The notes beneath the pieces were generated by a model. It was not told the DNA's origin, ran no database searches, and saw nothing but the letters and a program-made list of their open reading frames with translations. DNA of 64,000 bases from contig CACVBU010000970.1 of NCBI GenBank assembly GCA_902728285.1, forward strand, positions 372,001-436,000, written 5' to 3'. Both the position numbers and the translations under genes were made by a program. The stretch comes from Clytia hemisphaerica (lineage: Eukaryota; Cnidaria; Hydrozoa; Leptothecata; Clytiidae). Positions 24,201-59,859 of the stretch are shown piece by piece. How positions within the stretch are numbered: position 1 is the first letter of the stretch; each line of letters begins with the position of its first letter.

Positions 24201-27200
24201 AAATGTTCTTAAAATTTTCTTACTTTCATCATTTTGTGACCATTTTTATCCATTTTCCTAAGAAAACGGGTGTTTTTGAGTCCGTAAAGCCTTAACATTT
24301 TAGCCATCGAGGCTTTTATGTTCTTATAAAGTTTGTTCTTATAAAAAACGTGTAGGTGACGAGAATGGAAAAATTCAGAGTTACAATCTTTTCCGTTGGA
24401 AGACGTCTGTTTGTCTTCTGCTTCCCGTTGGTGCAGCTGAAAAATCAAGATTGTCCAAAATATATTCCTTATACGCAAAAAAAAATAACACTTAAATATA
24501 TAGCATGAAAAAATCAATACCTATCTGTTGACGAAGACAGAACCCAGCTAACACTCACATCTAACGTCGAATGGACGTTGTGAACGTTAGATAAACGTTG
24601 AAACAATGTTGTTGTTGTCAGCTGGGAATAGAGGCCTACTTTTCGGAAGAACAGTTCTTAACAACTGAACCCAAAAACTACTTTAATCGGATTAACTTTC
24701 GCGAGATTAAATTTCGCGATTTCGCGGATTTTTGCCATTTTCACAAAATTTAAACTCGCGAAAACACGTGAGATTCCTGACTCACGAAATTAAATCCACC
24801 ACAAAATTTTAAAAATCGCATTTTCGGCGGAGAAACCAGTCCAAAGTCTCCAACTTGGGTATAGAATGGCTATTTTTTAGTTGTTTTCAGGTTTATTCTC
24901 GTAATTGAATCCACGCGAAATCTTTCAAAACCCTGACTCACAAAATTCAATCCAGAACATTTCGCGATTTTATTTGCTCGCGAAATTTATCCGATTAAAG
25001 TAGCCAGAGCAGTCCCAAGAAAAAAGAGACGATGAAATCGTTGGTATAGATCATTGGTTGAAATAGTTCAAAATAAAAGACAAAGTCCTTTACCAATCGA
25101 ACATTTTATTTTCACATGACATTATGCCTGAAACTTAAAATTTAAAAATCAGCGAGTCAATCATAATACCTGGTTGCTTCTTTTTGCCAATAAGATTCTA
25201 AAACGAAAATGAACAGAAATGAGGTTTTCCTATAGCGAGCACCTCGCTCAAGTAAAAAAAACATGCAATGTAAAGCTAAAAATTAAGATTTGATATGAAT
25301 ACCAATAAACACTTACCTCATAATTGAACTTGAAGTCATCTTCTTTCACTCTAAAATATAACAGATGTACACAGAAATCTGCAACAAATTCTTTCAGCAA
25401 GTACGAAAGCATCCATCGAGGACCTTTTTTCAAACATCTGTTTCCCAGGCATAGGCTTACTGGAAAATTCAATCTGTTGGCCAGAATTTCAAAATTCTTA
25501 TTTCTAGAAATTAAGATCTGTTTCTCCTCGAAACCAAACTTTTAATCTTAACCCTATTCATACTAGGCTTTTAGGGGCGGTTCAGAACTAGGGGGGCTTT
25601 TCCTGTACCACCCCTTAACTTTTGATCTAGTGGGTCTTTTTGGATGAAATTTGGCACACAAGATCCTTGTGACGTAAGGTAACAATTTTTTTGATGACGT
25701 CACTCATCATGCCCAAAGTGAGCAAAAACCGAAAATTTCCTTTGTTCTTGTAAATAGCTATTGTATTCTAACAGAGGCTTTAGAAAAAAGTTGCCTGAGT
25801 TTAAAATGCTCATTTTATCCTAAATATTCAATAAATTACGGTTTAAAAGATATATTTGACAATGAAAATAACTTTGTATTGGAAAAGTGTCAATTTTTGT
25901 GACACCTTACTGTCAGAAATGTCATCATGCTCAAGGTGTGAAAATATTTAGGTGTCAAATTTTTTTTTATTTTGAAGCTAAATAAAAGTTAGGAATTTAC
26001 AGAAAATTTCACGGCAAAAGCTCTATTATTTCAGGAGCTATTAGCAATAGTTTGACCTCCGAACAGAAAGAGCCCCCCCCCCCCAGTCTATGGTAGCCCA
26101 TCGGTATCAACGTTGTTTTTAGAGCATTTAGAACAAAAAAGTCAAAATTTAAGATAAAAAAATAAAAAAGTAAAAAAAAATTTCAAAAAATTTAAAAAAA
26201 AAATTAAAAATTAATTAATTCCTGGGCTACGGGGTCTAATTTCTTAATCGCAATCTATGGTTGTCTTGATACTTTTTCAAGAAAAATTATTTTCCTGAGA
26301 GTTTGGACCTCGAACTCTGACCCTAACTTGATTGGCAGATTTTATATGGAATATTTGCTGGATTCAAAACAAATTCCTACATATCTCAGAGTAGATAGAG
26401 GTACAGAAATTGGAACCATGGGGACAATTCAAGCCTTCCTTACTGATGAATTTGGAAACATGGAAGATCCTTTGAACTCTGTTGAAATTGGTCCATCAAC
26501 TTCAAACAAGATAGAACGTTGGTGGAAAGAACTTCATGAACGCATGGAACGTTATATCAAAGAACAATTGAATTTTCTTCTACGATCTCATGCATATAAT
26601 CCCAACAGTGAAATCGACAAAAAAGTAATGGCTTATATTTTTGTCCCAGTTGTCCAACGTGAGTGCGACATTTTTGCAAGAGGCTGGAATGCTCATCGAG
26701 TTAGGCATCAAGCAGGTGTTATTCTACCAGCAGGTGTCCCTAATCATATCTTCAATTTTCCAGAGAAATACAATGCTGAGGACCAGCATATTCCGATCAC
26801 TGAAAACTCCCTGTTAGAAGTTAGCGCCCTTGCCAAGCTTGATGAAGGACCATCACACTATATCAACGAAGAAGATCAGCAAGTTTTTTCAAACCATTTG
26901 GCACACCCTCAAGATATTTTATGTAAGGATTTAGTGGATACATACTTAAAAAGCTGTGTCACTTAGAACTTGACTGTTTTTGAGAGATATTTAACCCTAT
27001 CTGCCTGAGGGTTTCGGGGACTTGTGCTGCTCCGATATGGCACATTTAGGCCCCCTTGAATAATTCCTGATAGGGTGATTCAGATTTCATGAAACTTTGC
27101 ACACTTATATTAAGAACAAATCACGAAAAATGGGATGGAACTTTTAAACAGAATAAATACCATTCACAAAGAGTTTTTTGACTCATTTTTTCTGGTATTG

Positions 27201-30200
27201 CTCACGTCACAAGCAGGTGGTACATTAAAACCTGATTACTAAAAAGCTGGTGCTAAAACCCAAAAAGTGATTAAATCGCAGATTTCTAATTTTTTGAAAA
27301 AAACATTTTCCCATAACTCCTGATAGAATTTTTCTTTTGCCATGAAATTTGGTACAGAAGTAGTTTACAATGAATATATCAAGATGGACTACAAAAAGAT
27401 TGCATTAGATATGGAAATTTTTCATAATAGCAGCATAAATATGGAAAAATGCGAAAACGGCTATCGGCCTACCCTAAAAAATCGGTCACGTGATATAGGC
27501 GTTTTCAATGAAATCTTTTTATGCAATCTTAATCTACATCATGTACTGAATCATTGTATAAAATTTCAGGTTATTTGGACAACTGGTTCGGATTTTATTG
27601 CTATCTATTAATTTTCGGATTTAGCGGTTCTGGGGTTACTGCTGAACAAGGAGCCGCCTTGGGGGTCATCTATATATAATATATAGTACGTACGCAAGAA
27701 TTTTCCAAATATTTGACACCCCCTCTTTTCTTGTACGCAGAGAACAATATAAATGACATCATTCAAACAATAGACATATGCTTTTGCTAAAACCCCCTCT
27801 CTCCCCCCTTCACTGCGTACGTACTATATGGATGGCCCCTTGGCTGACATGGGCAGATTTTTTAAATAATTTTTTTCAGAATTTTTTGTTTAAATGAATT
27901 TGTAAAGAAGTCAAAAACTTTCAGAAAGTTTGTTTATAAAGTGGATAAAAAGATATGGGGAAAATCTAGTAGGGGGCACATTGTGCCCCATAGGGGCAGA
28001 TAGGGTTAAGCTATACCTTAAGGGAGCTAATTTTTGCGCAATTAATTTTTGAGGTCAGCTAGCATGAAATAAACATTTTTATGAACCAAAATTCTGTTGA
28101 TACGTTTTGTACAAAAATAGCAGACATCAATATTAGTGTGCTTAGAAAGAAATTCATATTTAAATGGGTCTAAAATTATATTTAATTTTGAATGAAAAAT
28201 GAATTTTCCTTTTAAATTTTACCAAAACAACCAAAACCATGTACTAAGACTCCCAATGTTATTACAATTGACTGATTTCTTGAGGAGAGCATATCGCATT
28301 AGTTTATATCTTCTGTTAAAAACTTCTTGTAGTTGTATTTATTAGCAAAAAGAGCTTTGAAATGAAAATTTATCGTTAAATTTATTTTTGCTGATGACCA
28401 ATTTTGATAATTTTTGCGGGAATTAATTTTTGCGGTCCGTATGTCAACAAAATTTGCGGGAACTAAATTTTGCGGTTTGTACTTCGAGACTGGTTAGTTT
28501 TGTTGTTTTTATTTGTATACCTTTCTTCTTTCCCATAATGAATATTGTTTCATTTTTTTGCTCTAGCTTCTAGGTGGATCTATTTTTTTGGTCATTGCAT
28601 TTATTCAGGAAAAATATTATTATTTGTAACTTTGAGATTATAATATATTTTGTTCTATCCTGTCATCCTGTAAATAAAGGTTTAAAACTACTTGTGCATT
28701 GTACCTAATGATTATCCGTGAAAGTACATTAATTAAAAAGCACTTTTTTAAGAAGACCAATTAGACCATTTTTCATTACTCTATGGGTCAAATAACACTT
28801 GGATATATCAAGTTAATATCTTAGTTTGACTGGATATTTTTTGCAGCCCTTTTGTCAAGGTTTAGTAAAAAAAATGGACCCAAAATTTTTCACAAAGCAC
28901 TTTCTCCACGCAAACAGCTTTTTAATTTTGTGATCTAACCTAAAAACTGTAAGGTCTATCATGCGATCTGAAAAAAATATGGGATAAAGAAGCACACTCA
29001 ACTTTTTATCAACTAATGGACCCTATTTGAAAAAATTTTATTTGACCAGAATGACCAAAAATATTAAAATTCTTTGGCCTTGTGAAGTGTGAAGCCAAGG
29101 CTTTAAAATTGAAAAGTGCTTGATAAAAAAAACAATTTCTGTGAAATATTTCCTAAATATTGCCACTTTTTATGACAGTGGAGGGTTTACGTAGTATTAC
29201 TACAATTATGTATAACTGTATTAGGCGAGACCAATTTAATTTGTTGTTCCACGGGCGCAACCAACCCACCATTTTTGCTGCAAACAAAAAAATAATTTCA
29301 AATTTCTAATACTAGTCATTTTAAAAATTTACACTTAAAGTTGAATTTTCGACCAAGATTATTTGAAAATATTACTTAAAGCCTAATTACCTTCCGTGAT
29401 TAATGAAAATCTTATTTTTATTTTATCGACCGACCGACTCATATTTTGCTAACGATATGCCTGTAGAATAAAATTGGTCTCGCCTCATACAAATTTAATA
29501 TTTAAGTATCTTTTTCATTTGGTAATGTTAACTTAGTTAATGGGGGGCGTACGGTTTGACTGTATCCGGGATAAGGCTTTTTTAACGTGAGATAAAGGTA
29601 TTCACGGGAGAAAAAAAAAACAGGATAACAGGATTTGACTCATAGTGACGGTAAATGTCAGATTTTTCTCTCAGGATACAGTATTTTTGTTCAAAATCTA
29701 CAGTATTTCGGTGAAAATCACAGAGAAACGGTACACAATTTTGTCATTATTTTAGCGACAACTTTTGTGATGCAAATACTTTATCAAACAAGAGCGGTTT
29801 TGGTTTTGGCCATAACAAGAACGCCTAAGTAAAAAATCAATATTCCCCCCTCCTCTAGTTTAAGCCTTTTCAGGGTAGGTTCTAAACATTTATCTTCTTT
29901 TTTGTTATGTTCTAGCTACAAAAAAAATTACAGTTAACACAATGTCAAATTCAGAGAAGTGGAGAAATTACAACAAAAAAATCTCTCAGAAAAGGATGGG
30001 TGATAACCAAAAGATTCAGCCAACAAAGAAACTGTCATATATTAATATTCAAAGAATGGCGCCCGATGCAGCAGAAAAAACTCTAAGATATGCTCCTGAA
30101 AAAACAAGAGACTTTGTCGATTTTAAAGAGTATCAAAGTTTGACACTTGCAAATGTTAAGCTAGCATGCGAAAAGTTTTATAATGAGCCAGCAGGGTCAT

Positions 30201-33200
30201 GTGATGTTTTGTTCTCCGATAAAGGGCCTAGCTGTTCTGTAGATGAACAAATACAAGGCAAAAAATTTTTATTAATTAGATTCATCGAGCCAGTCCAGGG
30301 GCCAGCTAAAAATTTAAATGTCTCCAATCAAGCTAGCGTGATGCAAAGCAGAATGGTTGGCGATAGTTGTATGGAAAGTTCATCTAAGCGTATACGCACT
30401 AGTAAAACCATCGCTCGAAAAAGTGCCCTTATCCCTCCTACAACTACAAATGGATTTCCAAAATCTGTTTCCATTGGGGACGTTCTCGATGCCGGAAAGC
30501 TGAAAAAACCTATTCATGAAATGAAAACTGAATTGGCACTGGAATATTTTGATATTAGGTCTAAAATTTGGTTGAAAGATACGAAAGAATTAAATATCAA
30601 AACTGAAAAGTTTTCTGAGGGTGCTTTCAGAGAAGCTTTTATGACATACAGTATTTCGAATGGTAAGCGCGAGCTCTACGTATTGAAAAAATTCAAAAGT
30701 GAATCATGGTCCAAAGTCTCAAAAGTGTATGGTATGAGCTTAGAAGAGCATACACGCAAACAAATACAGATGCATATGGCTGCAAAAGCCATTGCCGATA
30801 TATTCTTCAAGAAAATAAACCTGACGAAAAGAGAGGATTGGTTTTCATATAACGATGCCTTCTTTGCGACCCTAAATGGAGAGCCGGTCACAGTAGAGCC
30901 ATTTGTTGCTGGTAAATTTACGAAATATATTAACAATGATGGGGTTATTGGATCCCACGATACAAACAAAAATGCATCCAAAGCCATATATGAAAAAGCT
31001 GAAGCCTTGTGCCATTTTTCTTATGAGGACAGTGCTGACCGTCTCATGCTAGCCGATTTGCAAGGGAGTGGTCTAATACTGTATGACCCAGAAATTGCAA
31101 CTGCCGAAGAACTCGAGGGTGAAGATTTACAGGGAGAAAAATTCTTTTGTGGAGGCAACCTCAACGATGTTGCAATTGACACTTTCTTTCGTAATCATAA
31201 GTGCAATATTTATTGCAAGTTAGCTTCACTGAGAGAAGTGGCAATGACAGAAATTTCCGATGACAGTCAGTAAAGTTGCTCCTGGCTACATATTCGTAAA
31301 AACAAATATGTATTTACTTCATATTTTATTAGAAATTTGTTTTGCGTATTTTTCTTTTGTTAAATTCGTTTGAAGGTAGCCCTCAACAATAATCTTTTGT
31401 CAAGTTATAGTTTTTGTTTTAACGTTTTTTACGTGTTTAAATAAGGGAGCATAATCCGACTTTGGCCAGGGGAGAAGTTGTTTTCATTTTGGCTGAAAAT
31501 CGAAATCAACCTGCTACGACCCCTATGCACAAATAAAAGTTAGCCAGAATGCCAAAAATAATAGGCCTTTTTGTGTAGAGCTTGTACGCTGTTGTTCTTT
31601 GACTAATTTTGGGTAATATCACCAATATTCTTTTCTGAACCCGTATATACTTACAAAGTGCTTTCATTTTCAGAAAAAAAATCCAGTGTATATGCAATAG
31701 CCTACGTCAAGTAACTGACCCTTAGAGTAACTTCAAATTTTATCAAATGTCAGTATTTTGGTAAACCTGGTGCGTATCAGACCCACAACTTTTTTTAAGG
31801 GTTTTGGCATTGCCATTGGCCTATTTGGAGATCTTTTGACTAAAGAAACTCGTGATATTTATACCCAAAATTAGTCAAAGAACAGCGGATACAAACTCTA
31901 CACAAAAAGCCTATTTTTGGCATTCTGGCCAACTTGGTGCATAGCGGTCGGAGGCTGATTTCGATTTTCAGCCAAAATGAGTATCATTTTCAGAATCAAC
32001 ATTTAAAAAATGCCAAAAAAGCTTTTCCAGGCAGAAAATCGAAAAAAATGTTGATAAATGTCCTTTATCAATTTTCACATATTTTTAAGGCTTTAAGGTT
32101 GTCAGGGTTTAACCCTATTTTTATCAGGGGGGGGGGGTGTTTTCCACCACCCTGGCGCTCTTTTGCTAATAGCTCACAGAAAAATTATTTTGACACTCTG
32201 AAACTTTTTGACTTTTATTAGCAATGTGTATACCAAATTTTACAATCATCTTCGACATTTTTATTGCTACATTAAAAACCGGCAATTATGTTTAACATCT
32301 TCTTTTTGGCTTTTAGAAAATCAAAGCAGAATTGAGAAATCTTTATTTGTTCAACTTTAAATTGCAGTTTTAGTAGAGGGTACTTTCTCATTGGTCAGCG
32401 GTAAATGTAAAACTTTGTGATGACGTCATCACCTTTATGATGACATATCCAATCCAAATATTTTTTAATGTATTCCTAATATGGTATTGAACATTCGTGC
32501 CAAGTTTCAAGTCAATAGCACTTCTACATAAAAAGTTATGGAAGGGTGGTGGAAAACACCCCCCCCCCTTGATAAGAGTGGGTACTTAAAGTTACACAGC
32601 CTAGTTTTTTTTAAAGTTTTTCAACTGTTGATATTCATATATTTTTTAAGGCTTTAGGATTTATAAGAGTGGGTAAAATTCTTCACAAACCAAGTTTTAG
32701 GTTAATATTTTTAACTGTAAAATGCTGTAAATATTCCAGAATATTCACATATTTTCAAGGCTTTAGGAGGATTCTCACTGTCAGGGATTTTTTTGCCGTC
32801 ATCGCGATCACGAAAATAACCAAAACTTGCCCATCACGCCAATTCTCAATAATATAGCACCACGCCCCACATTTTCCCCACGACAGAATGTCAGAAAAAT
32901 ATGGGTGGGTCGGTATAATTAAAAAAAGTTTCTCAAAACCTCGGGTTGGTAATGTCCTATAGAATTAGGTTTTTACCCTGAAGACGTCAGTATTTGCAGT
33001 ATTTGTACTTGATAAGGAGAGTTTTCTATTTGAAGCTTGCGCGGCAGTGATTTTTTCTGTTACCTTTCTCTTTTGTTTGATACTTCTTTATTTATTACTT
33101 TATTTTCACGTGATACCAAATGACACTTTACTTCATGGTTTGATGAAATTAGTTTCCTCCTATCAATTGGATAATTTTTGGACTTTTTTTATATTTTTGA

Positions 33201-49207: not shown

Positions 49208-49333
49208 TTAAAAACGTGTAGTTAAATAATTTGGGAATTTGGGTTCTACTTGGACGTGAACTCGCCAAGTCTACTAATTTTAATTTGACATTTAATTAAT
49301 AGTTTTTATAGCACAAAATAAAGAAAAAACAAT

Positions 49334-50263
49334 ATGGGAGTCAGCTTCAACAATAGGACTTTGAACGCTTCATTCAGTTTGCTGACAGCGCTTACAGACG
49401 ATCTCCAAATAGTCCAGGGGATGCCTTACGTGTTTATAGCAGAGGGCGTACTCATCATCACCATAAACTTCGGACTCGTACTTTTTATTGCGCTACGTAA
49501 AAACGTTCGTAAAAACCCCAAAAACATTATCCTGGCAAGCCTCTTCTCAAGTCATTGTTTTGTTGGCATGTTGTGTTGCTCGTTGCCAAGCAACCATCAT
49601 CACAACGAGGCCGTTAAAGGACCATCTATTGATTACGGGAGTGCTATCATGCTGGCATCTTTTTGCAATCTAATGTTGGTGACTTTAGATCGATTCTTGG
49701 CAATACAATTCCCAATGTTGTACAGTCGTTTAACAACACATATGCTGATCTTAGCATTATTCATCGTTTGGTTGATTCCTGTAATGTTCTTACTGGCAAC
49801 TCTGGCAATTCAATTATCACGGCTAGCCTTTGTGATTATCACTTTTTCTTCCATGGTCATTTTACTACTTAACAATATACTCATATATGGTATAGCTAAG
49901 AAACAAGTCAAAAACATTAAGAGCGTTTTGATTCAAACTACAGACAGGAAAAATACAAATAAAATAAATAGACAGTCAGCCAGTCACCATCGCGCGTTTT
50001 TCATCTGTGCAGCTATGGTTTTATCCTATATTATAGCTTGGTTACCAGCCACCATTTATGTGCTCTACGATTCGCTTGTCGAGGAGAACAAAGTCAGTAA
50101 TGTGTATTTGAATTTGATTGTGTTTCTGGCGTTTGCGAATAGTATCTCTGATCCGATTATTTATACGTGGTTTAACAGAAAGTTGAAAAAGAAATTGAAA
50201 CAATTTGTACAAGAGGGTAGAGGACGTGCGCAAACACAGATGAGCTTTTTGGAAAACTCTTAA
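49334..50263 (+). CDS. Rhodopsin-like (class A) GPCR, single exon
   Basis: 309 aa with seven hydrophobic segments: TM1 about 30-53, TM2 64-84, TM3 102-125, TM4 137-160, TM5 164-188, TM6 221-245, TM7 257-279. Class A marks seen: LDRFLAI (118-124; DRY as DRF), AWLP in TM6 (235-238), NSISDPIIY in TM7 (269-277) and a basic helix 8. N-glycosylation sites lie in the N-terminus (NRT, NAS). Unusual: TM2 has Ser where the sodium-site Asp normally sits, and the usual TM3 cysteine of the TM3-ECL2 disulfide is absent, with a very short second outer loop. Orphan; the ligand cannot be inferred. Large families of intronless class A receptors of this type are common in cnidarians and other invertebrates. Confidence 0.93.
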   Translation: MGVSFNNRTLNASFSLLTALTDDLQIVQGMPYVFIAEGVLIITINFGLVLFIALRKNVRKNPKNIILASLFSSHCFVGMLCCSLPSNHHHNEAVKGPSIDYGSAIMLASFCNLMLVTLDRFLAIQFPMLYSRLTTHMLILALFIVWLIPVMFLLATLAIQLSRLAFVIITFSSMVILLLNNILIYGIAKKQVKNIKSVLIQTTDRKNTNKINRQSASHHRAFFICAAMVLSYIIAWLPATIYVLYDSLVEENKVSNVYLNLIVFLAFANSISDPIIYTWFNRKLKKKLKQFVQEGRGRAQTQMSFLENS

Positions 50264-51889: not shown

Positions 51890-52545
51890 CCTACCTGTTG
51901 ATCAAAAAATTTTCCAAGAAAAAATTACTTCAGCCACATTTTAGGGTGCCTTGCACTCTATCTTTCTGCCAAAAATCAGGAAAAACTAATGAAGCAATTT
52001 TGCACAAAGTCCAAAAAACCTTATTTTTAGGTAGTTTTTGGCCCAAATTTGCCCCCCAAATTTTTTTTCAAAAATCGGGCTCTGTCACTTTTTAGGCATT
52101 GCTATTTTGTATCATTGTGCAAAAAATTAAAAAAAACTAATGAGCCAATCCCGAGAAAAGCTGCTAACAGGAAAATGGTAAAAGGGAATTTCCCCAAAAG
52201 ACGAAAATCCATATTTTACGACGAAAAAAAATTTTCCGAGAAAAATTACTTCAGCCACATTTTAGGGTACCTTGCAATTTATCTTTCTGCCAAAAATCAG
52301 GAAAAACTAATGAAGCAATTTTGCACCAAGTCCAAAAACCTTATTTTTAGGTAGTTTTTGGCCCAAATTTGCGAAAATCCGTATTTGACGACGAAAAAAA
52401 ATTTTCGAGAAAAATTACTTCAGCCACATTTTAGGACACCTTGCACTCTATCTTTCTGCCAAAAATCAGGAAAAACTAATGAAGCAATTTTGCACAAAGT
52501 CCAAAAAACCTTACTTTTAGGTAGTTTTTGACCCAAATTTGGTAA
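51890..52545. repeat. Tandem units containing CTTCAGCCACATTTTAGG
   Basis: Three similar units start near 51925, 52246 and 52418, each running ACTTCAGCCACATTTTAGG to TAGGTAGTTTTTGGCCC. The sequence relates to the interior of the element at 43070. The left boundary is TGGACCTACC at 51888. A GGTACC-element right end (GGTACCCGAGAG) follows at 52595-52606. Confidence 0.7.
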
Positions 52546-53908: not shown

Positions 53909-56900
53909 TTATAAATCTTTCTTTTTAAAGCTAAAAATCCCAGCAATTGTATCCATCACAAGTTTTTTGGGACATTCATCTTCAACTAAATTCTGTTCTT
54001 CAACACAATATCTTAACATTTTTTGAACAAGGGCATGAATTTCCAAAAATCCATTTCTTTCATTAACCAGAGAATATTGACCGAGTAATTGAACAATTTC
54101 TTCAACATCAATTTCATCAATATTATCCAAATAAGTGAACGTTTTTTTATTGATTCTCTTATTATCCATGTAACCCATCATTGTTAAAACTAAAATAGCA
54201 TTTTTAGATTCCTCTTTTATCTTGTGAAATGCCATATCCCAAACTGTCAACAAAGTTTTATCGTAGTCTGAAAATGACTTTATTTTCATGCTTAAAACAC
54301 TTTTGCGGCAAGCTTCAAATTGCTCAATATAAGATGGGACAGCAATTTTTAACTTACGTATATAACATATTGCTTGATGTAAAGCTAAAGGGTAACATTG
54401 TAGATGACCAACTAGAGTTGAAATATCTTCAGCAGAAGCATGATGAATTTGACCTTCCAAAAATCCAACAGATTCATATTCCTCAAAACAAGGAACTTTT
54501 ATATTGGTGACAGCAAGATCCTCCCAATCAGTCAATTGTGATGTCATAAGTAATGATAATTTGTCCTTGACATGACGAAGGAAACTCTTAAAATCTTTAG
54601 ATGATAAGTTTGTAACATCATCTAATACAATCAAAGTCTTTTCCTCAACTTTGCAAACTTTTGATAACAATAACTTGACCAATATTTCAGTCGAAGGATC
54701 TTTTGGAAGATATTGACCTAATCCAAAATAGCGGATGATTTCATCCATTGTTTTATTGAGATTATCGGCAGCTATCCAAAAGACTTTTTGGTACTCATCT
54801 TTGTATAACTGTGTGAATTTGGCAACAGTCTGTGTTTTTCCAACACCTCCCAACCCAGTCAAAACGACTCTTTGATTTGAATCAAGTTCTGAGTGAATAT
54901 TTTTGATAAGTTCCTTACGACCATAGAAAACGGAGACAGGATCGTATATGTTCCAATGTTCCACTATGGAAAATAAAAGTAATTGGTTTGATACCGATGT
55001 CGTTGAATTGCATAAAAAAAATAAAAATCATCTGTAGTGAATTCACATCATAATGTGTTTAGATAAAGTGGAAAATAGCAAAATTGAAAAAAATAAGCAA
55101 CTCAATTATGCCGGCAAAACTCTTCATAGAGAATTTGATATAGTATAAATTAAAACCTGTATGATCCCTGGATTGAATTGACTCATCTTTGATTTCCAAA
55201 TTCTTCATTCTATCTTCCAAAGCTGAAAAAGGATTTTGAAAGTATGGCGTGTTATTGGAAATCATTATAATCTCTATTGTTTTTGGATCAATATTTTGTT
55301 TATCAATTGAAAATGAGACGAAAAGGAATTTCTTTTTGTTAAGTTTAACCAATTGATTGATTCATAATAGTTTGATTATATGAAGAATTCTTTTTATGTA
55401 AAAAGATTCTAGTTCAATGTATGTAAAACACATATAATATCAGCTCAGATTGACTTAAATCAACTTTTTTATTTTTGAATCCCTCAATTTCATCGTCACG
55501 AGCAAAAACCCTGCGCAGGCATAAAACAAAGCATAAATTATCATTGAAGAAATATTTCAAAATCAAACCTTTAAGTTGATTTTTATCAGCTTTTTCATCT
55601 TTGACATTCTTTACTTCATCGCTCAAATCTGAAATCACAAAAAAATGAAAGAAATTAGCAGCTTATCCCTTTAAAATAAATACTTACTTATCATTGAAGA
55701 AATATTTCAAAATCAAACCTTTAAGTTGATTTTTATCAGCTTTTTCATCTTTGACATTCTTTACTTCATTGCTCAAATCTGAAATTACAAAACAAAAGAA
55801 ATTAGCTGCTTACCAGTGGATACCCCTTAAAACCTACAACAACTAAAAGATACTCCATTTATCCTGATAGAGAAAACATTAAGGGCTGAAACTTTTCCTA
55901 GTGAATCTAGGCTACCTATGAATTTCTCCCCTTTTTATAAAGCTGCTATGAAAAATGTTATTGCTTCGTGAAAAATGTGATTTTAGCTATTTTTACCCCT
56001 TAAAACCTACAAAATGGTTTTCTTGAATGACTTTTTATAAAATAGTTCTTTTGGTCTCAAATTTTGAACAGCGATTCACTGCAAAGTTACTAATGCTATA
56101 ATTAGATCATTGGTACCTAAATATTTTCAAAACTGTACGTTAAAATCAAATCACACCTTAAAACTTACAAACATTGACCCCTTGCTCACAACTTACTGAA
56201 ACGATGAAATTGTAATTCAGGTGCTGAACCGTGATTAATTGATCAAATACATGCTAAAACCGATTCCCAAAACAATACTTGTATATTTCAATATTTCATG
56301 CCCATAATGCAATTGCACCTGTTTTTTTTTGTCAAAAAAAGGTTCGAAGGGTTAAAAATTTTATTCCCTTCATTTTTGACGTATGTTACTAATGTTTTTC
56401 TAAATCTTTATCAAATTTGTGACGTTTCGGTATGCAAGATGACCATGTTTCGAGAAAGTCGATTTTTAGATTTCATTTGCCACTACCATAACTTTAAAAT
56501 AGAACTTTGAGGGACTTGCAATTTCTTTGGGGTGTAACCATGAAGAAAAACATGATTTTTTCGTACCTACCATAAGTATAGGTACCTAAAAAGTAGAGGT
56601 ATTATGACCTTAAATTCATTTGTGTAATCTCTAGGTCCGAAAGACTTGATTCTTTGAAGGGATTTTTGATAACATTTTCAATAACTTCGAATTTTACGAC
56701 ACTTTGCGATGGTTAAAATTCTTGAAAATAGGTATTTTATGAAAGTATCTATATTAGAGTTTGTAAAAAAATGAATAGTAGCAATATTAAATTAAGTTTG
56801 GGGGTTAAGAGAACCCAAAACCCAACTTTGTAGATTTTTAGGGGTATATGGTTTTAAGGGGTATCCACTGGTATCCCTTTAAAATAAACTATTACTATAT

Positions 56901-59859
56901 CATAGGTGAAGAATTATTATTTCAAAATCAAACCTTTCAGTTCATTTTTATCAGCTTTTTCATCTTTGACATTCTTTACTTGATCGCTCAAATCTGAAAT
57001 TACAAAAAAAATAATAAAAGAAATTAGCTGCTTATCCCTTTAAAATAAAGTATTATTACTTATGATAAATGAAGAAAATATGTTTTCGAAATCAAATCTT
57101 TGAGTTCATTTTTATCAGCTTTATCATCTTTGACATTCTTAACTTCATCGCTCAAGACTGAAATCATAAAAGAATAAAAGAAATTAGCTGCTTACCCCTT
57201 TAAAATAAAGAAATTATATATGATAGATCAGAAATATGTTATAGCGGAGCTGGATAACGCACATTTAAAAATCCTTGTTCTATCTCTGTCCCTGACAAAT
57301 TTGATAAGAAATTTAACTTTTTTAATTAAAACTCGTGAAATTTGGATTTCCTCTTAGCCAATGATTCTGCTGCTGCATTTATCGTTCACGATTAAAAATT
57401 TTTAATTATCAAGAGGATCTGTAAAACATTGGTGAATGACAATTAAAAAAAATGAAAAACATTGTTTTCATTAGTAAAGTTGTAAGAAATTTCTTCTCTA
57501 AGATTATAAATAGTACTTTTTCATTTGAAATACCGCGCTATACCGTACTACCGTGGTGCCTCACTTTCTAACTGATATTTTCAGATAGTCGGTATGTCTG
57601 ATTATGGAAAAAAATTCAAGTCAATTGAAACAATATTTGTCAAAATATTTACATCCGAAATTTTTAAAGAGAAATCATGAAAGCTTCTCAAATTCATAAT
57701 ACACGCTGGTAAAAATAGATTTCATTTACAAAAGGAAGCTTTTGGGGTATCTTCTACAAATATGTGACCCTCCAAACGATTTGGAGTACATTAAAAACGA
57801 GACCGGTCTTGGTGCGGTCGTGCTTGTGCCGCTTTCGGACTGGTTAATTGTGCGATTAAATATTGAAAAAAGCGGCCAGAAGACCGCACAGTACCGTATG
57901 GCCCGTGCGTACAAAACGCCGACTAAAGCGGACGATGGTGCGGTCCCCGTCGACTAAAGCGGACGATGGTGCGGTCCCCGCCGTTTCTATGTATGCTGTA
58001 TGCTGTTTGTTATGCCGGCAAACGTTTCGAACGGCAAAATTTCCGCACCATGACTGCACTGAATACCGCACTTATTCAAATGGTGCTCTTTAGTGACCGA
58101 TCGAGTGCGTTTGAATGGATTTTTAAAAATTATTTTTGGATGATTTCTGGCCGCACGGTAAATCGTTTCGCCGCTTTTTTGCCGCACATATTATCGATCC
58201 GTCCGCACCAAGACCGGTCTCATTTTTGATGTACTCCAAATCGCTTGGGGGGTCACATATTATTTTGATGAAAAACGGGAACATCATAGCAAAATATGTG
58301 CAAACGTACTGCATAAATACTTTGTCTGCTTCATTTTTCTTATAAAAACAGAACACTCAAGGGGACAGAGATGGATTTCTATTATCAACAGTTTACAATA
58401 GAAAAGACAAAGAAGCAATCCGCTAAGGAATTCTCGTCCTTCATCCAGCTCCGCTATAACATTTCCCTGGATAGATGAAGAAAATTTTTTTTTAAAATCA
58501 AACCTTTCTGTTCATTTTTATCAGCTTTTTCATATTTGACATTATTTACTTCATCGCTCAAATCTGAAATTACAAATTAGATGAAAATAGAAACACAAGG
58601 TATCAAAAAGTCCAAAAATTCGTTATTATTGTTATGGGAAGTATAAAACTTCTGCAAGCCGATAGAATTTGCCTGGTGAAAAATTTTGCTCGTTTAAAAC
58701 AAACGATTCAGTGTCAAGCAATTAATATCAAAATTCAAGAGAATACCTTGCACATCCTTTTTATCAGTGCTGATTACTTGAATTTTCTGCTGCAAGTTTT
58801 GTATATCCTTAGCATTGTCATTGGTATCTTTCATTAAATTTCCAAGCATCGTATGAATCAAGGAATTATGTTTATCCAAAGAACACTTTTCCAAATCATA
58901 AAACTTCTGCATATCCTTGTACTGAAGTCCAAATAGAATGTTCTCAATTCGACTCAAAAATGTTTTGAACGTTGGCAAGTCTGGAATGTCGGTAACAGCT
59001 CCATGCTTTAATTCGTTTCGAAGTTTTCTGACCAAATAAAGATAAGCTCCAATAGATTGGTCACCTGGACTAACATTCTTGATATCCCAGCCTCCATTAG
59101 GTTTAAAACCAACAACAGTTCTTAAGACAGCAATGAGTAAGGTGATGTCCCAATCTTCAGGGTTTGAAAGTTGGTTTTGAGGACAAAGTGTGTTCCATTG
59201 ATCAGATTTTAGCACTTTGTGAAGCTTATTACCTGAAACATAAGAAAACTGAGGTTGAGTATGTATCTGAATTGAGAGGAAACAATGTCATTCATGGCTA
59301 AAAAGTGAGCAATACTATTATTGTAATCAATAACACAGATGCACTTCCTATCTTGGAGTCACCCTTGAATAAAAAAGTAGGTATTTTCATCTGGTGGCTG
59401 TTGGTAGAGCAGGGAGTGAGGGAGTCTCTCCCCTTTTCTATCTGCGGTAGACCTGTGAAGTCCCACACCTTCTCTCAGCCCCAAGCTATCTACCTCATTG
59501 ATCAGATTACCCAATCTAAGCAACTCATTTGCTGAGTTGGCAGTGACCGGGGATGAATCTCACATCCCTTAGATTGTACAGCGAATACTCTACCAAGCCA
59601 TGTTTAATATTAATCTAAACCTATATTCCATTATTACGTTAAGGTTTCCTGATACAACTCAAGTTCACTTACGTTTATCTTGTTTGCATTGCAATAATCG
59701 CTGATACAAAGCTGATGGATTTGTTGGCAGACCATGGTAAGATGCATCATTATGAGAATTGTAAAGAACATCTATAAGTGCCTCTTTAATGCAATATTCC
59801 AAAGCGAGATTGACTCGAATCCAATACTCGCTTTGTAGAATGTGCAGAGGTGTACTCAT
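53909..59859 (-). CDS. HEPN(DZIP3-like) - repeat linker - NB-ARC protein (NLR/STAND-like)
   Basis: Exons: 59673-59859 (start), 58747-59232, 58504-58563, 57098-57157, 56934-56993, 55719-55778, 55569-55628, 55157-55222, 53909-54963. All join in phase 1, totalling 697 aa if every repeat exon is used. Exons 1-2 encode a DZIP3-type HEPN domain with DWDITLLIAVLR, GGWD and the intact RNELKH (R-x4-H) motif of HEPN RNases. The 60-nt exons give a charged coiled linker. The last exon is NB-ARC: P-loop GLGGVGKT, Walker B LIVLDDV, LLMTSQ sensor, CYPLAL as GLPLA. Such proteins act as oligomerising innate-immune or cell-death switches; HEPN could cut RNA on activation (inference). The donor of 57098-57157 is AT, not GT, so that exon may be skipped without frameshift. 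Confidence 0.85.
55461..55506 (-). pseudogene. Relic repeat exon
   Basis: On the minus strand RDDEIEGFKNKKVDLSQSEL aligns with the repeat unit LSDEVKNVKDEKADKNQLK. The acceptor position reads TTTTTG instead of a YAG and no GT donor follows, so this sixth copy is probably dead. Confidence 0.55.
55813..56871. mobile_element. TA-flanked element CCAGTGGATACC, with empty sites in sister repeats
   Basis: Ends CCAGTGGATACCCCTTAAAA and the complement, with TA at 55811-55812 and 56872-56873. The uninterrupted sequence GCTTATCCCTTTAAAATAAA exists at about 55660 and 57030 in sister intron copies, proving the insertion point and the TA duplication. About 1.06 kb, no transposase seen. Confidence 0.9.
57229..58470. 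mobile_element. hAT-like element in the exon array
   Basis: Inverted ends CAGAAATATGTTATAGCGG and CAGGGAAATGTTATAGCGG, extending through AGCTGGAT. GATAGAT is repeated at 57222-57228 and 58471-58477 (8 bp if one mismatch is allowed). A GC-rich inner foldback (57762-58259, TATGTGACCC ends, paired GAGACCGGTCT) includes a 31-bp tandem duplication near 57925-57980. Overlapping ORFs there are palindrome artefacts. Confidence 0.8.
59545..59602 (-). repeat. tRNA-derived SINE head
   Basis: Minus strand: A box TTGGTAGAGTATTCGC and a B box-like AGATTCATCCC at tRNA spacing, followed by a body reading AACTCAGCAAATGAGTTGC. It lies in the first intron of the NLR-like gene. Confidence 0.55.

Follow-up and report, generated by a model that had tools for sequence, protein, structure and literature searches.

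A tandem family of NLR-like HEPN/NB-ARC genes in Clytia hemisphaerica with a linker of phase 1-1 exon units that vary in number

In STAND proteins the tail senses and the NTPase switches and oligomerises; HEPN domains pair and cut RNA. The DZIP3-type HEPN was described in animals as fused to NACHT, TPR, DEATH and LRR, among others (PMC3710099, available portion). Its combination with NACHT was reported in cnidarians, Clytia included (PMC8260672, in part), HEPN was found in NACHT/NB-ARC proteins of corals, where NB-ARC occurs mostly with TPR (PMC10236652, in part), and the pearl oyster was found to have an expanded set of HEPN-NACHT proteins with Rx4H (PMC9646362, in part). As far as the available portions of these sources go, the cnidarian and bivalve proteins resemble the Clytia family described here in their N-terminal HEPN, STAND NTPase and expansion, and in C-terminal repeats as far as the Clytia tail is TPR-like, but the same portions mention no exon-counted linker, whereas the Clytia family has one.

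Exon-modular repeats are known from other candidate receptors. The brown-algal ROCO and NB-ARC-TPR proteins carry one repeat per exon in constant phase, and these exons are duplicated, shuffled and alternatively spliced (available portion of PMC11378527, citing Zambounis 2012 and Teng 2023). There, according to the same portion, each exon unit encodes a sensor repeat, either LRR or TPR (72 bp and phase 2 in the case of ROCO), whereas the Clytia units lie between HEPN and NB-ARC as an effector-switch spacer and the tail is encoded together with NB-ARC in a single exon. Human NLRP3 and other NLRs have modular LRR exons, used differentially by alternative splicing (PMC6642158, in part), unlike the Clytia modules, which form the effector linker. 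The module that exon shuffling typically uses in animals is the class 1-1 exon (PMC8001218, in part); these modules and the titin PEVK exons are symmetric and can alter the protein in frame, as the Clytia units can, but in the descriptions available in part the former are folded domains and titin PEVK is a muscle spring, whereas the Clytia units belong to a STAND receptor. An earlier note on this DNA knew of no described equivalent of the array, a statement that is too broad given the brown-algal ROCO/NB-ARC-TPR and NLRP3 repeats and the standard use of class 1-1 exons in animals. No paper on an exon-counted effector linker of this kind was found in the literature searched, with subscription papers mostly outside it. 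The domain architecture and exon-modular sensor repeats are thus already known, while the exon-counted effector linker looks new.

We analysed a stretch of 64,000 nucleotides, called the window here (C671:372001-436000), and searched the 417 Mb assembly of 951 contigs to which it belongs. The window gene is a hydrozoan nuclear gene, located on the minus strand at 59859-53909 of the window and composed of exon 1, the HEPN exon, five repeat exons, a 66-nt exon and the NB-ARC exon. Its parts and the inserts between them are as follows (window positions).

59673 to 59859, minus strand: exon 1, with the start codon and the N-terminal part ahead of HEPN (open reading frame and AC/GTAAGT donor)
58747 to 59232, minus strand: exon 2, DZIP3-type HEPN with RNELKH (Pfam PF18738, E 9.4e-15; splice sites and phase)
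58504 to 58563, minus strand: linker exon R1, 60 nt, phase 1-1 (repeat match and splice sites)
57229 to 58469, no strand assigned: transposon-like insert between R1 and R2, 34-nt inverted ends
57098 to 57157, minus strand: linker exon R2, 60 nt, donor AT instead of GT; read-through leads to an in-frame stop
56934 to 56993, minus strand: linker exon R3, 60 nt, phase 1-1 (repeat match and splice sites)
55811 to 56873, no strand assigned: transposon-like insert between R3 and R4, 38-nt inverted ends
55719 to 55778, minus strand: linker exon R4, 60 nt, phase 1-1 (repeat match and splice sites)
55569 to 55628, minus strand: linker exon R5, 60 nt, phase 1-1 (copy present in database protein P0001)
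55443 to 55502, minus strand: possible relic of a sixth unit, 35/60 bases, no better than a low-complexity chance site in the window; no AG/GT at its ends
55157 to 55222, minus strand: last linker exon, 66 nt, phase 1-1 (exact in P0001)
53909 to 54963, minus strand: NB-ARC exon (Pfam PF00931, E 9.3e-8), in-frame TAA at 53909-53911 at its end; 351 residues identical to P0001
52721 to 53908, minus strand: TPR-like tail, the same-frame continuation, cut off by the stop here and open in the neighbour

The identification of an NLR-like HEPN/NB-ARC gene in the earlier note was confirmed, both domains exceeding the Pfam cut-offs. HEPN_DZIP3 (E 9.4e-15) takes the N-terminal effector position of STAND/NLR-like receptors, and its RNELKH follows the Rx4-6H pattern of the HEPN ribonuclease superfamily; RNxxxH was present in all 17 HEPN copies read, broken copies included. 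The NTPase (PF00931, E 9.3e-8) has its Walker A motif, GGVGKT, in the window-gene translation. Exon 1 is 98% identical to exon 1 of P0001. Beyond the TAA, 395 aa continue in the same frame with weak similarity to TPR (TPR_12, E 5.2e-4, 20.6 bits, under the Pfam cut-off of 30.1), and the neighbour copy, C671:438928-436688, reads through at this position.

The 60-nt phase 1-1 exon array that the note had described is present as five copies, with phase 1 at every junction of the gene as computed from the exon borders; it is not intact, since R2 has lost its donor and the inserts split the array. The exons are symmetric, having phase 1 introns on both sides and lengths that are multiples of 3. The five copies match the typed unit at 55-59 of 60 bases, compared with at most 35 of 60 at other window sites, by which chance similarity of the repeat exons was ruled out. 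The repeat takes in intron as well as exon, a piece of at least 124 nt present in five copies, spaced 150-164 nt where unsplit and divided later by the inserts. A nested element with 62-nt inverted arms (57759-58261) lies inside the insert at 57229-58469.

The window holds other features on its own account. An integrase core domain (26208-26966, plus strand; Pfam rva_4, E 3.8e-18) marks a transposon-type gene, an alpha-kinase domain ORF is found at 29879-31273 (plus strand; Pfam E 1e-32) and a rhodopsin-type receptor ORF at 49322-50263 (plus strand; Pfam 7tm_1, E 6.4e-18). Just downstream of the window gene a 169-nt unit is repeated twice in tandem with 93% matches (52202-52541).

The NB-ARC query had at least 60 genome matches and the HEPN query at least 86, many of them distant. 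NB-ARC matches of at least 53% identity, some short pieces among them, lay on the contigs C671, C793, C913 and C858. The DNA read from the clusters comprised 50 kb on C671, 140 kb on C793 and, on C913, the 60 kb from 39.5 to 99.5 kb, C858 lying outside it. We detected 47 unit exons in the three clusters (35 of 60 nt and 12 of 48 nt) and 25 last linker exons (23 of 51 nt and two of 66 nt); an array peculiar to the window gene was thereby ruled out. Exon lengths were preset in the scan, which left the splice signals at the precise exon borders as the test; GT stands at 4.5-4.8% of positions in these contigs. Among the unit exons AG was present in 46/47, GT in 44/47 and an open frame in 46/47, all three in 43/47; AG, GT and an open frame occurred together in 24 of the 25 last linker exons, and both kinds taken together had AG/GT in 67/72. 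Two unit exons lacking GT, C793:1064823 and C913:51872, lie outside the HEPN-to-NB-ARC spans, and those at C793:1027159 and 1027443 belong to a copy in which no HEPN was found.

The number of units differs from gene to gene. The window gene has five copies (one dead), the neighbour four (one dead) and the other genes one to four. Counting usable units in 14 genes, there are four in the window gene and three in its neighbour on C671; one in G1 and G7, two in G2 and G10, three in G5 and G9, and four in G3 and G6; two in H1, H2 and H3, and one in H5. G4, G8, H4, H6 and truncated copies were omitted from this count for missing parts or unclear exon assignment, and HEPN or NB-ARC is broken in some of the listed genes (G6, G10, H3 and the window gene). 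A tree built from 13 terminal exons, G1 excluded, requires six or more changes of unit number when the dead copies of the two C671 genes are counted in. This tree has a star-like shape, one of its ten branches being starred. The differences among paralogs, together with database models that differ in the exons kept, support the proposal of the note that gain, loss or skipping of units keeps the reading frame.

The intron interrupts the 20- or 16-residue unit at one constant point, and one repeat register runs from the closing residues of the HEPN exon (KADKNDVQ in P0001; TDKKDVQ, a degenerate form, in the window gene) through the units to the last exon. The constant cut point and the matching half-units in the flanking exons allow any number of units to be joined in frame and in register. 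The statement that each exon adds one coiled 20-residue unit was not supported in that form: the 100-degree periodicity exceeds all but 9 and 4 of 200 shuffles, yet the signal is strongest at 144 and 154 degrees, and paralog units also have 16 residues. A 20-residue unit would measure about 30 angstroms if helical. Pfam DUF4795 covered the linker in 6/11 members, below the cut-off, and the best PDB matches were repeat proteins, aligned chiefly to the KADK repeats.

The HEPN plus NB-ARC architecture can do without the exon linker: a relative on C899 (HEPN 48% and NB-ARC 41% identical) encodes the two domains within a single 1019-aa open frame. The linker of its protein, P0056, has no KADK units, and P0056 (Clytia) and P0057 (known by its transcript name only) belong to a sister group without units. 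In the ORFs P0077, P0078, P0080, P0083 and P0085 one to six 9-residue repeats of the KADK type (KADKSEL-type) close the HEPN reading frame; these five, read out of 27 'ena' matches, are 50-54% identical to the query, and their repeats precede what is apparently the same boundary, KADKxDVE then G, or nearly so. Length variation of the HEPN/NB-ARC linker may, to judge from these sequences, predate the exon array and have come about by more than one route.

Comparison of the window gene with its neighbour gave dN/dS of 0.34 for HEPN (142 codons), 0.30 for NB-ARC and 0.92 for the tail, and a slightly shifted boundary gave 0.37 for NB-ARC and 0.89 for the tail. The tail exceeded NB-ARC in 55/55 B-group pairs (medians 0.71 vs 0.30), which share genes and are not independent, and in 45/45 pairs after removal of the stop-bearing H3 (medians 0.70 vs 0.31). 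In 60-codon windows the first half of the tail had dN/dS of 0.5-1.1; one NB-ARC window (columns 151-210) reached 1.02, resting on very few silent changes. Such a contrast is expected where a conserved switch adjoins a recognition surface on which selection is either diversifying or relaxed; diversifying selection is our own reading, and the fast-evolving tail strengthens the immune reading of the gene.

We compared 21 Clytia family proteins from the database (P0001-P0010, P0033-P0035, P0072, P0073, P0076, P0091 and P0104-P0107) with the clusters. NB-ARC occurs without HEPN in three of them (P0002, P0034, P0035); P0001 and P0002 are encoded letter for letter in C671, while P0033 (51-nt exon twice) and P0072 were not placeable as wholes. 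The 16 placed models are divided at the predicted exon borders except on three points: the last exon of P0007 is 12 nt longer, P0076 continues beyond a unit and P0009 is missing a stretch where the HEPN exon ends. Three models (P0091, P0106, P0107) contain the 60-nt exon C793:1067798 and two (P0004, P0105) skip it, all of them database models that may be predictions. P0003 and P0008, both named isoform X2, keep one copy only of the doubled 51-nt exon. Six of the 16 models stay inside one gene (P0003, P0005, P0008, P0009, P0076, P0107) and the other ten (P0001, P0004, P0006, P0007, P0010, P0073, P0091, P0104, P0105, P0106) combine exons from different genes, within C793:940-1080 kb and C671:425-449 kb. 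The join of 58747-59232 to 53909-54963, which the note had expected, was seen in 0/21 proteins; P0001 instead consists of the window R5, 66-nt and NB-ARC exons with the neighbour's HEPN exon, located 20 kb upstream. Six direct cross-gene junctions, in P0001, P0006, P0073, P0091 and P0104, connect pieces that each have a single match in the DNA read, so that uniqueness applies to the regions of C671, C793 and C913 named above; for P0006 and P0091 the HEPN side has to be taken as a long piece to be unique, since several genes are alike at its end.

The cross-gene models may result from splicing, from a prediction or annotation chimera, or from an assembly or haplotype fusion, each compatible with the models alone. 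Splicing would make the array one receptor cluster in which the HEPN, linker and NB-ARC exons of neighbouring genes, all with phase 1 introns, are recombined, as the cross-gene joins in 10/16 placed models and the six junctions between single-match pieces suggest. We regard such a cluster as unlikely: gene predictors and short-read assemblers produce chimeras of this kind in tandem arrays, the broken HEPN copies of G6, G8, G10 and H3 would push a predictor to borrow the upstream one, real fusions may sit on other haplotypes, and 6/16 models stay inside one gene. On the side of splicing, P0091, P0104, P0105 and P0106 have neither start nor end, as transcript assemblies may. That the tandem array is a splice-assembled system, with HEPN, length-unit and NB-ARC/sensor cassettes joined within and across genes into many combinations and broken cassettes bypassed, appears quite doubtful to us. 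The condition of the window copy itself has to be weighed too. It may be a dying or truncated gene that yields no more than a HEPN-NB-ARC protein without a sensor, with a possible role as helper or decoy, a reading to which we give a serious chance, though one below even. The TAA at 53909-53911, a position that is open in the neighbour, the AT donor of R2, the transposon-like inserts in the array and the stops present in other family members all point this way; P0001, on the other hand, terminates precisely at this stop, and dN/dS against the neighbour is low in HEPN (0.34) and NB-ARC (0.30). The high tail value was dropped as a sign of decay, because other family genes, compared in pairs, give values between 0.49 and 0.92.

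Neutral tandem exon duplication would leave the linker a permissive spacer with no length selected, intron-exon units being added and removed by unequal exchange and the symmetric phase merely making changes harmless. Several features are consistent with it: the repeats reach into the introns, unit number differs among related genes, the tree is star-like, as with frequent exchange, and the differences among unit exons (109 amino-acid vs 30 silent, random single changes giving 142 to 29) are nearly neutral in ratio, so that constraint on the unit sequence is weak. However, the nine C671 unit exons are 92.5% identical, their intron flanks 84% and 81% and similarly aligned random pairs 69%, with exon identity above both flanks in 26/36 pairs. 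Defective units are few (4/47), and an apparent relative varies its KADK linker otherwise, by the 9-residue repeats in the HEPN frame of five ORFs. We consider neutral duplication a rather improbable account of the array.

The best explanation as a whole, which we consider probable to a moderate degree, is a tandem NLR-like family with a phase 1-1 exon linker, tail-triggered HEPN clustering, linker length as reach, and unequal exchange. What is observed directly is how the exons are arranged, that this arrangement recurs across the family, that unit number varies and that database models differ in the exons they keep. According to the proposed mechanism, the TPR-like tail is the likely sensor, and binding there would open NB-ARC. 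The opened NB-ARC would cluster the HEPN domains, the predicted RNase effectors, into active RNase pairs, and the length of the linker would set the reach between HEPN and the switch. Changes in unit number would arise by unequal exchange between near-identical intron-exon units. Linker length may also be tuned to function.

Comparisons of NLR-like receptors usually rest on their effectors and sensors, and the effector-switch distance is rarely a countable trait. In Clytia the same receptor occurs in tandem with 1-5 natural units, which makes the role of spacer length in HEPN activation and oligomer geometry directly testable. These genes also let one ask if symmetric exons are an adjustable part of immunity in animals, as was proposed for the brown-algal sensor exons.
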